DNA of 50,748 bases from Bacteroidaceae bacterium (GTDB lineage: Bacteria; Bacteroidota; Bacteroidia; Bacteroidales; Bacteroidaceae): positions 1-50,748 of the forward strand of contig JAFZIA010000067.1 of the NCBI GenBank assembly GCA_017554605.1, written 5' to 3'. Position 1 is the first letter of the stretch. Each line of letters starts with the position of its first letter. Shown piece by piece: positions 5,179 through 44,076 of the stretch. The position numbers and the translations under genes were made by a program. A model generated the notes under the pieces. The model was not told where the DNA came from. It saw nothing but the letters and a program-made list of their open reading frames with translations, and ran no database searches.

Positions 5179-5244
5179 TGCACTACATTCTCACCTGTGA
5201 CATCATACTCGGGTCAATATCTATATCATTACCAAAAATAAAAT

Positions 5245-5817
5245 TCAACAATAAAGAAGAGCATAGCACCGCATCAGCATAAAGTTGGCTACAATCAGCA
5301 GACATATAGCAAGAGTTGTGCCAAGAGTCCAGACAATCTTCTTTTTTTTACCCTCTTTTTTAAAAGCTGCAAAATAATTCAAGTAGCGATCCTTCTTCCA
5401 ATATGTCAAATAACCTATTATCCACGAAGGGACAATTCCAAAGCCAATAACAAGTATCAAGTGCCTTCCTACAATGTCCAATGCATGTGGCCCATAGCAA
5501 ATCACCCCAATATTAATCACCAAATAAATAGGTAAAGCAAACAGCAACAATGCAAGACCTGTCAAATAGTATAGTGTAAACCCCGATGCAGGGTGGTCTA
5601 AGGTCTTATACAACCCACTTCTCGTCCTATCCTTATATTCCTCGAATGAATTAATTCCGTATTGCTTTTTCAAATGTCTCTTCCAGAAAGGCAAGCAATA
5701 CAACGGGCGTTGCACCAATAATTCAACTGCTGCATATATAGGTAATCCGGAGAAATACATCAGATTGTACAACGAGTACAACAACCTGTTCAAGAATTTG
5801 TCTATCTTGTCTTTCAT
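5245..5817 (-). CDS. Membrane protein of unknown function
   Basis: I do not recognise this 190-aa protein. It has about three hydrophobic spans (near residues 78-104, 115-140 and 163-187), separated by basic loops, and a soluble, aromatic N-terminal part with a short amphipathic region (LYSLYNLMYFSGLPIYAAVE). The start is only two bases from the end of the truncated thioredoxin-like gene upstream, and with the TlpA-like gene before that it looks like the last gene of a three-gene transcript. The family of its neighbours suggests an envelope role, but nothing in the sequence proves one. Confidence 0.6.
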   Translation of the reverse strand: MKDKIDKFLNRLLYSLYNLMYFSGLPIYAAVELLVQRPLYCLPFWKRHLKKQYGINSFEEYKDRTRSGLYKTLDHPASGFTLYYLTGLALLLFALPIYLVINIGVICYGPHALDIVGRHLILVIGFGIVPSWIIGYLTYWKKDRYLNYFAAFKKEGKKKKIVWTLGTTLAICLLIVANFMLMRCYALLYC

Positions 5818-40290: not shown

Positions 40291-41292
40291 ATGGTAAATT
40301 ACAAACAGTTAGGTCTTGTAAACACTAAGGATATGTTTGCAAGAGCAATGGAGGGTGGCTACGCTATCCCCGCGTTCAACTTCAACAACATGGAGCAGTT
40401 GCAGGCTATCATTATGGCTGCAGTTGAGACAAAGTCTCCCGTTATCCTCCAGGTATCAAGCGGTGCTCGTAAGTATGCTAACCAGACTCTTCTCCGTTAT
40501 ATGGCTGAGGGTGCTGTCGAGTATGCTAAGGAGTTGGGTTGCGCTAATCCCGAGATAGTTCTTCACCTCGACCACGGTAACTCATTCGAGCTCTGCAAGT
40601 CTTGCATCGATATGGGTTTCTCATCGGTTATGATCGACGGTTCACACCTTCCCTATGAGGAGAATGTGGCTCTTACAAAGAAGGTTGTAGAGTACGCTCA
40701 TCAGTATGGTGTAACAGTAGAGGGTGAGCTTGGTATCCTTGCAGGTGTTGAGGACGATGTTGTTGCTGAGCATCACACTTATACACGTCCCGAGGAGGTT
40801 GTTGACTTCGTTACAAAGACAGGTTGCGACAGCTTGGCTATCTCTATCGGTACTTCACACGGTGCAAACAAGTTCAAGCCCGAGCAGTGCACACGCAACG
40901 CTGACGGTATCCTCGTTCCTCCTCCCTTGGCATTCGACGTACTCGAGGGCTGTATGAAGGAGCTTCCCGGATTCCCCATCGTTCTCCACGGTTCTTCTTC
41001 GGTTCCCCAGGACGAGGTTGCTACAATCAACAAGTACGGCGGTGCATTGAAGGACGCTATCGGTATCCCCGAGGAGGAGCTTCGTAAGGCTGCTTCACTT
41101 GCTGTTTGCAAGATCAACATCGACAGCGACAGCCGTCTTGCAATGACTGCTGCTATCCGTGAGGTATTTGCTACCAACCCCGCTGAGTTCGACCCCAGAA
41201 AGTATCTTGGTCCCGCTCGCGACAATATGAAGAAGCAGTACATTCACAAGATTGTTAATGTTCTTGGTTCAGACAACAAGCTTGCAGAATAA
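40291..41292 (+). CDS. fba: Class II fructose-bisphosphate aldolase
   Basis: 333 aa. Zinc-dependent cleavage of fructose-1,6-bisphosphate to dihydroxyacetone phosphate and glyceraldehyde-3-phosphate, and the reverse in gluconeogenesis. Motifs: AIPAFNFNNMEQLQAI at the N-terminus, zinc-binding VLHLDHGNSFELC and VEGELGILAGVEDDV, ISIGTSHGANKF, and the phosphate-binding VLHGSSSVPQDE plus NIDSDSRLAMTAAIRE. Very strong codon bias fits a highly expressed glycolytic gene. It is monocistronic between a promoter box and a hairpin. Confidence 0.97.
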   Translation: MVNYKQLGLVNTKDMFARAMEGGYAIPAFNFNNMEQLQAIIMAAVETKSPVILQVSSGARKYANQTLLRYMAEGAVEYAKELGCANPEIVLHLDHGNSFELCKSCIDMGFSSVMIDGSHLPYEENVALTKKVVEYAHQYGVTVEGELGILAGVEDDVVAEHHTYTRPEEVVDFVTKTGCDSLAISIGTSHGANKFKPEQCTRNADGILVPPPLAFDVLEGCMKELPGFPIVLHGSSSVPQDEVATINKYGGALKDAIGIPEEELRKAASLAVCKINIDSDSRLAMTAAIREVFATNPAEFDPRKYLGPARDNMKKQYIHKIVNVLGSDNKLAE

Positions 41293-41312
41293 TTCTGTTT
41301 ACTTTATTGAAT

Positions 41313-41356
41313 AACAAACGGCGGCAATGCATTTATGTGTTGCCGTTGTTTATTTA
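41313..41356 (+). terminator. Terminator after fba
   Basis: AACAAACGGCGGCAA (41313-41327) pairs imperfectly with TTGCCGTTGTT (41340-41350), followed by TATTT. Confidence 0.55.
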
Positions 41357-41559
41357 GTAGGATACTGTAAATTGGTAATTTTAGGCTCAAAAGAAATTTA
41401 ATGTGAATAATATTAGAAGTTTACATTAAATCATATTTACAGCTTTATACCTTGTTGCAATTTCCTGTCGCCTATTGTTATTTTTACGCCCTTTTCGTCG
41501 GTATACAATCTTTTGCAACATTAATATATCTTTTTTGGCAAATTTAAACATCTTCTTGT

Positions 41560-41567
41560 TATTTTTG
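41560..41567 (+). promoter_or_regulatory. -7-like box before the DUF559 repeat array
   Basis: TATTTTTG follows AAATTTAAACATCTTCTTGT, a variant of the dispersed element. It would transcribe into the first palindromic unit and the DUF559 gene, with a long structured leader. Confidence 0.35.
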
Positions 41568-41592
41568 CATTTGGCTATGAAAATACATACTT

Positions 41593-41841
41593 CGAACTCC
41601 TCAGTCACTTCGTGACAGCTCCTCTTTCGCAAAGAGGAGCTCCTAAGTTTTTTATTTGAATGTTGCTTTAATTTTTAGTGTTAATTATTGAAATATAGTA
41701 ATCAGCTGCTATTCCGTTAATAGAGGAGCTCCTAAGTTTTTTTTATTTGAGTGCTGCTTGAAAATAAAACGTAAATAATAGAATTAAAAGTATATAGTGC
41801 TCCTCTTGCGAAGAGGAGCTCCGCGGAGCGGTGAGGAGTAG
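41593..41841 (+). repeat. Palindromic repeat unit 1 of the DUF559 locus
   Basis: About 249 bp. The left end has a GTCAC/GTGAC hairpin in CAGTCACTTCGTGACAG and then a hairpin of GCTCCTCTTT/AAAGAGGAGC. The right end has GCTCCTCTT/AAGAGGAGC and GCTCCGCGGAGC, then GGTGAGGAGTAGA, so the two ends are imperfect inverted copies of each other. Inside, CTCCTAAGTTTTTT plus about 20 more bases occurs twice. Near-identical copies at 42360 and 42692. Confidence 0.85.
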
Positions 41842-41919
41842 ATGAGATATGTGCGTAGGCTTTTATTTAAGTCAAGTTGCTATGCAGTAAAAGTGTTCGG
41901 TGTAGAAGTAAAAACAAAA
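41842..41919 (+). repeat. 78-bp leader of the DUF559 gene, repeated at 42612-42689
   Basis: ATGAGATATGTGCG through GTAAAAACAAAA is found after unit 1, where it leads into the DUF559 coding region, and after unit 2, where unit 3 follows at once. The two copies differ by one base. It contains an in-frame ATG (41842), but the gene body is missing in the second copy. Confidence 0.85.
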
Positions 41920-41925
41920 AACAGA

Positions 41926-42294
41926 ATGTCTAACAAAGCAGAAATAAATAAAAAGGAACTAAAAGATATAAGGCGTAAGTTGCGTAATAACCCTACACCT
42001 GCTGAGTCTGCTTTATGGGTTCATCTTAAAGCAAAGAGATTTTATGGCACACATTGGCGCCGTCAATTTTCTGTAGGTAATTATGTTCTTGATTTTTACT
42101 GTCCTTTTTCAAAATTATGTATTGAGTTAGACGGTAAGGAGCATTTTACTATTCAAGGAGATACGTACGATTATGATAGGACTGAATTTCTAAATTCTAA
42201 AGGGATAAAGGTAGTACGTTTCGAGAATCGAGAAATTTGGGAAAATATTGAACGTGTATTAGAGACTATAAAGCTTAGTCTTAATATAGAATAA
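41926..42294 (+). CDS. DUF559 (Vsr-like) endonuclease
   Basis: 122 aa from ATG 41926. An in-frame ATG at 41842 lies in the repeated leader, which also occurs without the gene, so the shorter start (MSNKAEINKKEL) is preferred. Family pattern: LRNNPTPAESALWVHLKAKR, GTHWRRQFSVGNYVLDFYC, the PD-(D/E)xK-type catalytic strand LCIELDGKEHF, YDYDRTEFLNSKGIKVVRFE and NREIWENIERVLE. It is related to very-short-patch repair nucleases. Being flanked by three palindromic units makes a role in moving or maintaining those palindromes possible. AT-rich relative to neighbouring core genes. Confidence 0.88.
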   Translation: MSNKAEINKKELKDIRRKLRNNPTPAESALWVHLKAKRFYGTHWRRQFSVGNYVLDFYCPFSKLCIELDGKEHFTIQGDTYDYDRTEFLNSKGIKVVRFENREIWENIERVLETIKLSLNIE

Positions 42295-42359
42295 TTATTC
42301 TTAAGTCAATATTTACGACTTATTTTATAAATGTTCGAACTCCTTATTTTTGCTCTTCT

Positions 42360-42611
42360 CGAACTCCTCAGTCACTTCGTGACAGCTCCTCTTTCGCAAA
42401 GAGGAGCACCTAAGTTTCTTTTTATTTGAGTGTTGCTTTAATTTCTAGTGTTAATGATTGAAATATAGTAATCAGCTGCTATTCCGTTAATAGAGGAGCG
42501 CCTAAGTTTTTTTATTTGAGTGCTGCTTGAAAATAAAAACGTAAATAATAGAATTAAAAGTATATAGTGCTCCTCTTGCGAAGAGGAGCTCCGCGGAGCG
42601 GTGAGGAGTAG
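42360..42611 (+). repeat. Palindromic repeat unit 2 of the DUF559 locus
   Basis: About 252 bp, near-identical to unit 1 (41593-41841). A short false start of the left end (TTCGAACTCC) lies at 42334. Followed by the 78-bp leader copy with no gene. Confidence 0.85.
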
Positions 42612-42691
42612 ATGAGATATGTGCGTAGGCTTTTATTTAAGTCAAGTTGTTATGCAGTAAAAGTGTTCGGTGTAGAAGTAAAAACAAAACT

Positions 42692-42940
42692 CGAACTCCT
42701 CAGTCACTTCGTGACAGCTCCTCTTTCGCAAAGAGGATCGCCTAAGTTTTTATTTGGATGTTGCTTTAATTTCTAGTGTTAATGATTGAAATATAGTAAT
42801 CAGCTGCTATCCCGTTAATAGAGGAGCACCTAAGTTTTTTTTATTTGAGTGTTGCTTGAACATTAAACGTAAATAATAGAATTAAAAGTATATAGTGCTC
42901 CTCTTGCGAAGAGGAGCTCCGCGGAGCGGTGAGGAGTAGA
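42692..42940 (+). repeat. Palindromic repeat unit 3 of the DUF559 locus
   Basis: About 249 bp, near-identical to units 1 and 2; starts 332 bases after unit 2. Followed by a variant of the dispersed AT-rich element (42971-43010). Confidence 0.85.
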
Positions 42941-42970
42941 TGACAAAACATTACAGAAACCCTTGGTTAA

Positions 42971-43010
42971 CTACTATATTATTACAAAAATTTAAAACAG
43001 TTTCTTAATT
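42971..43010 (+). repeat. Dispersed AT-rich element before BASS gene
   Basis: CTATATTATTACAAAAATTT then AAAACAGTTTCTTAATTT, a variant of the element at 39354-39409, in the same direction as the next gene. Confidence 0.55.
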
Positions 43011-43110
43011 TGCTGCTTGTACAGTTCGTTGGAGTAGAAACCCTGGAGTAGAAGCGGGAACGTGTAATTTCTCTACGCGCTATGGCGATTGCAATGTCGG
43101 CTATTTGTAG

Positions 43111-43118
43111 TAACTTTG
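43111..43118 (+). promoter_or_regulatory. -7 box of BASS transporter gene
   Basis: TAACTTTG, 19 bases before the ATG; TTGC at 43089-43092 is at a reasonable -33 spacing. Confidence 0.55.
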
Positions 43119-43137
43119 CACATCGCAAAAAGAAAAT

Positions 43138-44076
43138 ATGAAAAAGATATGTAATTTCATTACCCGTAATATGGGTGTTTTAGTGCTTGCGGCAGCACTT
43201 TTCTCACTGTTCTTTCCACAGTTGCTCGGTGCTGTAAGTACCAAGGCAATTAACCCTCTGCTTGGGGTCATAATGTTCGGAATGGGGCTTACACTGTCGG
43301 CCGAGGATTTCAAGGTCGTGTTCCGTCGCCCTAAGGATATGCTCATAGGGTGTCTTGCGCAATTCACCATAATGCCGCTGCTTGCGTGGTTGCTGGTGCG
43401 TATGTTCGCGCTTTCCGAGGGGCTTGCCATTGGTGTAATCCTTGTAGGGTGCTGTCCTGGTGGCACTGCTTCTAATGTAATCACCTATTTGGCAAAGGGC
43501 GACCTTGCGCTCTCCGTAGGTATGACAACCGTGTCGACAATATTGGCACCGCTGCTCACTCCCTTGCTTGTGTGGGTGTTTGCGGGTACGCTCACGCAGG
43601 TAGACGCACCGGCAATGCTTTTGAGCATTGTGTATGTGGTCATTGCTCCCATTGTGTGTGGGTTGCTTTGCCAAAAGTATCTTCCGCGACTCACAAAGAG
43701 CGTTGTCGACTATCTGCCGTCCTTCTCGTCGCTGATGATTATGTTTGTGGTGGGGATAATAATCTCACACAATGCCGAGAAACTGCTTGCGGGGGGATTG
43801 ATGATAATTATTGTTGTAGCTCTGCATAATTTGGGAGGGCTTCTTATTGGTTATCTTGTTGGGCGGATATTGCGTCTGCCGCGCGCAAAATGCACGGCGA
43901 TAAGCATTGAGGTTGGAATGCAGAATTCGGGATTGGCGTCGAGCCTGGCGGTGATGCACTTTGCCGTTTTTCCTCTTGCAGCTATTCCCGGGGCTATATT
44001 CAGTGTGTGGCACAATATCAGTGGTTCTATTGTTGCGCGTCTCTTTTCAAGGAGATTGGAGGGAAAAAGCTGTTAG
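43138..44076 (+). CDS. Bile acid:sodium symporter (BASS) family transporter
   Basis: 312 aa, about nine to ten membrane spans. SBF-family signatures: INPLLGVIMFGMGLTLSAED, LVGCCPGGTASNVITYLAKG, and GMQNSGLASSLAVMHFA, which hold the crossover and sodium sites. It imports an organic anion with Na+. Bile acid, pantoate, sulfonate and 2-keto acid substrates are known in the family; the sequence does not say which. Single gene, ended by a hairpin shared with the convergent fuc operon. Confidence 0.92.
   Translation: MKKICNFITRNMGVLVLAAALFSLFFPQLLGAVSTKAINPLLGVIMFGMGLTLSAEDFKVVFRRPKDMLIGCLAQFTIMPLLAWLLVRMFALSEGLAIGVILVGCCPGGTASNVITYLAKGDLALSVGMTTVSTILAPLLTPLLVWVFAGTLTQVDAPAMLLSIVYVVIAPIVCGLLCQKYLPRLTKSVVDYLPSFSSLMIMFVVGIIISHNAEKLLAGGLMIIIVVALHNLGGLLIGYLVGRILRLPRAKCTAISIEVGMQNSGLASSLAVMHFAVFPLAAIPGAIFSVWHNISGSIVARLFSRRLEGKSC

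Follow-up and report, generated by a model that had tools for sequence, protein, structure and literature searches.

The stretch of DNA analysed here, referred to as the window, comprises 50,748 nucleotides from a Bacteroidaceae bacterium (contig JAFZIA010000067.1). Its positions 41593-42940 hold a tandem array of three near-identical units of ~250 bp together with one DUF559 nuclease gene, located between units 1 and 2 as the preliminary description had claimed. The array is made of the following features:

41593..41841, + strand: unit 1, with left end at 41593-41641, inner part of ~155 bp and inverted right end at ~41798-41841
41842..41919, + strand: leader copy 1, 78 bp, 77/78 identical to leader copy 2
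41926..42294, + strand: DUF559 nuclease gene (PF04480, 2.6e-31), 122 aa from the probable start
42360..42611, + strand: unit 2, right closure of the gene-bearing copy and opening of the gene-less copy
42612..42689, + strand: leader copy 2, 78 bp, without gene body
42692..42940, + strand: unit 3

Ungapped comparison within the 197-nt repeat family gives 90% and 96% identity of the other two copies to unit 1. The left ends of the units are spaced by 767 (unit 1 to 2) and 332 (unit 2 to 3), which agrees with the steps reported earlier, and the 78-bp leader noticed behind units 1 and 2 is indeed there: after unit 1 it runs into the DUF559 gene, after unit 2 into unit 3. This leader was not found in the 17 other stretches of the genome that were examined, nor in L106, L071 and L113. 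Gain and loss of the gene body between the units are not polarisable from 8 congeners; the fbaA side of the window's site was matched in 7/8 of them, and no empty allele was found because synteny breaks beyond that side. Besides, the assembly is metagenome-derived (a MAG with 140 contigs), and near-identical repeats may be misassembled.

Each unit opens with a left end made of the box CTCCTC, a small hairpin GTCACTTCGTGAC and a main hairpin GCTCCTCTTtcgcAAAGAGGAGC, and closes with an inverted right end carrying a different small hairpin, CCGCTCCGCGG. The inversion previously proposed for the two ends of a unit therefore holds for the box and the main hairpin but not for the small hairpin, which varies in sequence while keeping its pairing (GTCACTTCGTGAC, CCGCTCCGCGG, GCCCTGCGGGC). 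Read by eye, left ends begin with GAACTCCTC and right ends terminate with GAGGAGTAG, without a common tag. The three ends tested each fold better than 200/200 dinucleotide shuffles (z of -5.0, -3.7 and -5.6), and an Rfam search of 41000-43500 returned no family at gathering score.

The DUF559 gene starts probably at 41926, as read from the sequence, and stops at 42294, thereby coding for 122 aa; the listed ORF of 150 aa is longer since it takes in the leader. The protein matches PF04480 (DUF559 / YcjD family) with 108.2 bits against a curated cut-off of 20.6, and DUF559 and MTES_1575 are the only Pfam matches at the locus, so that a RAYT/HUH element, whose domain is missing from the Pfam scan, was rejected. 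Six residues of the domain (E17, D46, E57, D59, H63 and D72) are invariant in an alignment of 121 rows, which took in 37 of the 80 named loci from other groups (the best 80 of 571 relatives). A profile built from 11 relatives matches PDB 3hrl (7e-31) and a mobile intron protein, PDB 3r3p (1.8e-4). The latter belongs to the I-Bth0305I-type homing endonucleases. YcjD was earlier placed among the PD-(D/E)XK nucleases, with Vsr as a profile match (PMC1189080), and in Caulobacter without a cytosine methylase a DNA-damage response was reported to require the DUF559 protein VsrA (PMC12907096). Phages and plasmids were rejected as main carriers: the window protein has matches in only 3/50,697 phage and 39/72,556 plasmid records, each of them with <60% identity.

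The window genome has a single DUF559 gene, whereas the unit is matched 30 times in it, including 27 matches on 17 other contigs; solo, gene-less units, for which the preliminary description had proposed a search, are thus present elsewhere in the genome. With a pattern allowing a few mismatches, 37 end motifs were found in the window and the 17 other stretches. The same description had held that units found equally often far from DUF559 genes would speak against its reading: most units of this genome are indeed far from its one gene, a situation that is compatible with non-autonomous copies without proving them. Within the genus, unit matches are frequent in G000 (30) and in G101 (29, including fbaA and a DUF559 gene), both of which hold window-clade genes. 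G046 has a window-clade gene and no such repeats; the search gave no match in G020, G067, G085, G130 and G144, and one weak match in G116. As side observations made by eye, relatives of the unit at L022 (2690-3160) have their box separated from the hairpin by additional palindromes (TTTGCCTTCGGCGAATTTTGG...), while both hairpins are missing from a unit at L012.

At the level of the family Bacteroidaceae, DUF559 is patchy, being found in 49/151 genomes with up to 8 copies per genome. All 86 hits of >=85 bits were studied, 85 of them with sufficient flank (L087, with a short flank, was dropped); two cut loci with wrong gene coordinates (L047 and L048) were kept in the flank, motif and end-matching counts and left out of the gene tree. 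The latter, obtained by a quick method from few columns, has 84 rows and two starred clades, one of 14 rows with the window protein and one, the sister clade, of the 70 others. When the upstream flank was compared with the reverse complement of the downstream flank, 70/85 loci beat 99% of the controls (320 intervals from the same stretches), with medians of 47 for the loci and 20 for the controls. This contradicts the possibility, raised earlier as an objection, that DUF559 homologues would usually have no palindromes nearby.

A common grammar describes the ends of the loci: first comes a pyrimidine box, next a linker or an additional hairpin, and last a hairpin in which the 5' arm tends to mirror the box. 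Among 83 ends with an asymmetric arm, the arm fits the box better as a mirror in 56, better as a direct repeat in 15, and equally in 12; shuffled boxes gave a mean of 21.8 mirror-better ends and a maximum of 31. Counted by locus, the figures are 30 mirror, 9 direct and 4 ties, the hairpins in this test having been chosen by script, with some poor choices. Such mirroring, a trait in common with the E. coli BoxC/triplex motifs that the preliminary description had not noted, suits a DNA triplex better than a plain stem. The window ends have the box and the hairpin, with a hairpin as second loop; their box core CTCCTC is itself mirror-symmetric, which makes mirror and direct repeat indistinguishable there.

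A strict box-linker-hairpin finder recovered the motif at both flanks in 57/85 family loci and at >=1 flank in 71/85, against 0/325 and 21/325 controls, respectively. Once a hairpin was allowed in the linker, the motif was found at both flanks in 61/71 and at >=1 flank in 71/71 sister-clade loci, compared to 5/14 and 9/14 in the window clade and 2/340 and 28/340 in controls, so that it is missing at one or both flanks in 9/14 window-clade loci. On the control intervals of the flank and motif tests, chance was rejected as the source of the repeats. In addition, within 10 genomes having three or more loci, the left end was best matched, or matched in a tie, by its own right end in 38/44 loci, where 10 were expected.

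A covariance model made from 21 ends has matches in 43/151 genomes: 25/32 with a sister-clade gene as against 18/119 without. Excluding the 12 training genomes leaves 13/20 against 18/119 (p 9e-6). The counts per genome are lower bounds, since at most about 44 candidates were scored in each. Their mean is higher with the gene in 9/10 genera and lower in the tenth, g3, where 2 matches occur with the gene and, without it, 28 (G149) or 0 (the seven other genomes). Of the 20 genomes with >=20 matches, 5 have no sister-clade gene, and 7/32 genomes with such a gene have no match. Many of the matches are convergent pairs. Of 19 places that were read, at least 7 lie inside one long ORF (L228, L232, L234, L236, L240, L241 and L244), ABC-F-, LytTR-, HflX- and methylase-like hosts being recognised by eye among them; the remaining ones are intergenic or unclear.

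The family elements are ~0.5 kb long, and those of the sister clade (465-745 bp) are built into coding DNA, a point not raised in the preliminary description. In a test of ORF continuity covering 68/86 loci (repeat score >=28, long flanks), 56/57 sister-clade elements run rightward into a same-strand ORF of >=80 codons and 40/57 are reached by such an ORF at their left edge, compared to 0/11 at either edge for the window clade; the window's own units are intergenic. Pfam scanning of 10 proteins reveals that the element splits Radical_SAM in a MiaB-like protein (L059), SpoIID in two genera (L036 and L054, both at profile position 49), a DegT aminotransferase (L102) and an AAA/UvrD_C_2 helicase (L086), and that Guanylate_kin, YgbB and Iso_dh proteins occur as fusions with other elements. 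The further host names used here (argG, argC, korA/B, galK, HflX, ABC-F and LytTR) were given by eye from translations.

Many insertions share their site, 44/86 loci falling into 12 groups with shared flanks. The largest, argG|argC, gathers 9 loci from 7 genus codes and two different gene sub-lineages. Site labels change 18 times along the gene tree (mean of 31.9 after shuffling, 0/200 as low) and genus labels 25 times over the same rows. The argC gene is present in 149/151 genomes; among 30 argC loci read, the right end of the element stands at its start in 6 and not in 24. At L101, the ATG of argC overlaps with the stop codon of DUF559 and a new N-terminus is encoded by the right end, and in G122 a gene-less pair of ends of 66 bp lies in frame inside argC. 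As a side observation, argC still begins in the right end of the element at L121 (G127), where DUF559 is reduced to a fragment (profile 71-108).

Empty and filled alleles, which the preliminary description had suggested looking for, were found in relatives and not at the window's own site. The L097 site is filled in G092 and empty in G150, G122, G075, G108 and G033, with one end and a gene remnant in G056, a gap of 83 bp in G005 and an ambiguous picture in G136. The L094 site is filled in G063 and empty in G113, with other contents in G014, G127 and G081, and was not found in G042, G098 and G141. Both filled sites are without host bases that are present in the empty alleles, and inspection of these two sites by eye gave no evident target-site duplication. 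Gene copies at the same site are 88-100% identical between related species; apart from one tandem pair with 87% identity, no close copies were found at different sites, the next best reaching 75%. This low identity implies that the gene rarely changes site, or did so long ago. Recent transposition as the sole mechanism was accordingly rejected, and homing combined with slow jumps fits better.

Two side observations concern other small genes. One operon junction in g15 (galactokinase-like | nucleotidyltransferase-like, by eye) differs in content among species (L255, L256, L257, L258 and L262): it may carry a DUF559 element, a gene for 23S_rRNA_IVP accompanied by inverted AATTGAGAATTG repeats, a gene for PDDEXK_3 accompanied by inverted TCACACAGAAATCACAGAA repeats, a gene-free stretch of ~195 bp, or nothing. 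Across the genomes of the family, inverted arrays of short repeats, for example AGGAGTTAAAGGAGTTAG, border the genes for 23S_rRNA_IVP (PF05635; L395-L424, 30 loci). With 3/30 loci too short, 24/27 tested lie above the 99% level, which was borrowed from the DUF559 family controls since no controls of their own survived; these loci may represent another type of small gene bordered by repeats.

Beyond the family, the best 80 of 571 relatives, taken from one scan, include Bacteroidota, Acidobacteria, delta-proteobacterial groups, Nitrospirota and Uhrbacteria. Five of these 80 named loci had short flanks and were dropped; 49/75 have inverted flank repeats above the 99% level of 450 controls and 26/75 fail. 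The association of the nuclease with palindromes, proposed earlier as involving another enzyme class than RAYT, is therefore real and widespread. For the strict motif, 70 of the 80 entered and 69 were tested, with both flanks in 5/69 and >=1 flank in 24/69, against 0/420 and 9/420 controls. A common end form among these best 80 is CCACCCC-TAA-CCCCTCCTT..AAGGAGGGG. The exact pattern CCACCCC-N3-CCCCTCCTT..AAGGAGGGG occurs in only 10/247 genomes of the phylum, 9/10 of which have DUF559, compared to 102/247 overall (p 0.002). The CACTTCGTGA palindromes that the preliminary description had mentioned beside DUF559 genes of other bacteria are also found, for instance at L111.

In Escherichia coli, ycjD (1351407-1351760) is a DUF559 gene (1.4e-49), and the sequence CCCTCGCCCCTCTGGGGAGAGGGTTAGGGTGAGGGG, about 170 bp downstream, is letter for letter TM no. 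9 (1351239-1351204; PMC4666352, Table 1), i.e., a member of the old BoxC/PIT elements. This proximity suggests the nuclease as the missing partner of an orphan repeat. No second end was found upstream of ycjD, and its flanks score 20, which is the control median. According to PMC4666352, TM sites are far more variable than controls and act as instability hot spots through a mechanism called unclear, the authors found no mobility genes around them, earlier work cited there saw no promoter or terminator activity of PIT/TM, and triplex formation of an oligonucleotide is published for TM_ECO only. Copies of the TM no. 9 stretch were found in 5375/5426 genomes (median 16, maximum 29 places), and ycjD in 3365/5426. 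In a spread listing of E. coli rows, the median number of places is 19 for the 37 rows that include the ycjD-side stretch and 10 for the 22 that do not, a comparison that is confounded by lineage, takes coverage as a proxy for ycjD status and excludes one 231-kb record of 60. In other lineages the position of ycjD is occupied by eefRABCD, and the presence of ycjD there was read by the authors as eef loss (PMC12817139). In E. coli K-12, the interval separating ycjD from TM no. 9 contains, by eye, an apparent second copy of the ycjD 3' end (GAGACGGTGCTGGAGAATATTCGGCAAGG; L263, near 5230-5400). Among viral contigs, at least 120 stretches contain the exact 21-mer CCCTCACCCTAACCCTCTCCC (L272-L391).

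In the light of these data, the DUF559 gene and the surrounding inverted, hairpin-rich, triplex-type ends can be read as one selfish element that spreads by cutting and repair, a reading to which we give a probability of about 0.5. It starts from the anatomy of the loci, the association seen across the family and other phyla, the gene-less double-ended copies, the matching ends, the recurrent and empty sites and the in-frame position of the sister-clade elements. The Vsr/I-Bth0305I-like nuclease would recognise or cut the triplex-type ends or the empty site, and host repair would then copy the element or its ends into the break in a homing-like manner, whereby host bases are lost and no target duplication is evident. 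Copies without the gene, such as units 2-3, the in-frame solo pairs of relatives and the BoxC/TM repeats of E. coli, would be non-autonomous derivatives, able in this scheme to spread through the genome. The sister-clade element may be retained because it has captured part of its neighbour: its right end supplies the start of the host gene that follows, which would make the element hard to lose. The mobile character proposed in the preliminary description is thus in line with the association, the gene-less copies and the empty and filled sites, but mobility itself is not borne out by close copies at different sites beyond the tandem pair.

Among the other explanations, the one closest to this scheme assumes homing only, DUF559 spreading between alleles at fixed conserved sites while palindromes are borders and gene-less copies decayed, immobile remnants. 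The contrast between same-site identities and different-site ones, the partial clustering of site labels on the gene tree and the relation to I-Bth0305I (PDB 3r3p) are all expected from it. Nevertheless, two gene sub-lineages occupy argG|argC, double-ended gene-less copies are numerous and dispersed, and one end type is met at unrelated sites; homing alone is therefore held to be unlikely. It is less probable again that unstable triplex-type repeats simply collect insertions, DUF559 being one of several small genes that landed there without a role in the spread. The instability of TM sites in E. coli (PMC4666352) and the operon junction holding a DUF559, 23S_rRNA_IVP or PDDEXK_3 gene according to the species would fit such a view, yet the two latter genes carry their own, different inverted repeats, triplex-type ends accompany DUF559 in many loci and phyla, and copies of the ends are commoner in genomes with the gene.

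That last excess also counts against DUF559 being a Vsr-like host enzyme which removes or tidies hairpin or triplex DNA and whose gene stays near its substrate for regulation. The profile relation of YcjD to Vsr (PMC1189080) and the DNA-damage context in which VsrA acts in Caulobacter (PMC12907096) would suit a repair enzyme, but a patchy gene with several copies in some genomes and insertions inside host genes do not, and we consider this role improbable. Finally, the ends might act in RNA, as mRNA processing or terminator stems resembling those of excised 23S rRNA intervening sequences. They are strong hairpins, and nearly all tested sister-clade elements run into the next same-strand ORF; however, mirroring between box and arm prevails (56 ends vs 15), and the earlier work cited in PMC4666352 saw neither promoter nor terminator activity, making this the least credible of the explanations and a very improbable one.

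Compared to known systems, the selfish element proposed here shares with BoxC/PIT/TM_ECO repeats the succession of box, linker and hairpin with mirror symmetry, as well as inverted pairs; those repeats are described as orphan, always intergenic in E. coli MG1655 and without enzyme or mobility gene (PMC4666352), whereas the present ends go together with DUF559 genes and, at sister-clade loci, stand in frame in genes. With REP/REPIN-RAYT systems it has in common one enzyme gene between inverted palindromes and many dispersed gene-less pairs (PMC3733652), but the enzyme is a PD-(D/E)XK nuclease instead of a HUH transposase, and the GTAG/CGTC tag grammar is absent. Rickettsia palindromic elements also consist of palindromic DNA in frame inside protein genes, as do the sister-clade elements and solo pairs here; they are ~150 bp long, of other sequence and with no enzyme known (PMC10969869), and the intergenic window units, with 0/11 window-clade loci in frame, depart from them. 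The likeness to I-Bth0305I-type homing endonucleases lies in the related nuclease domain (1.8e-4), the fixed sites in conserved genes and, for sister-clade loci and not the window's site, occupied and empty alleles of one site; in contrast, no intron or intein was seen, and the element has palindromic ends of its own and gene-less copies. Unlike an insertion sequence or MITE, it left no evident target-site duplication at the two sites inspected by eye.

A search of the open-access literature found no paper joining DUF559 or ycjD with these repeats, although an earlier description may exist. What appears new is the combination of this enzyme with these ends, for which no described kind was found, BoxC repeats and the nuclease prediction for YcjD each being already known. 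Described in E. coli as early as the 1990s, BoxC/PIT/TM repeats are not known to have a function or a mobiliser. More tentatively, at somewhat less than even odds, DUF559 nucleases could be the enzymes behind BoxC/PIT/triplex repeats across bacteria, forming a transposase-less mobile class in which a nuclease of ~120 aa, set between inverted triplex-forming ends, would enter genes in frame or capture the start of the next gene, thereby becoming hard to lose, and would seed gene-less copies. PMC3733652 asks whether untagged palindromes pair with specific binding proteins; with a candidate enzyme named in E. coli K-12, this question and that of the BoxC mobiliser become directly testable. If the proposal is true, it would define a class of elements whose enzyme is a repair-type nuclease, and would explain the in-frame palindromic insertions in conserved proteins.
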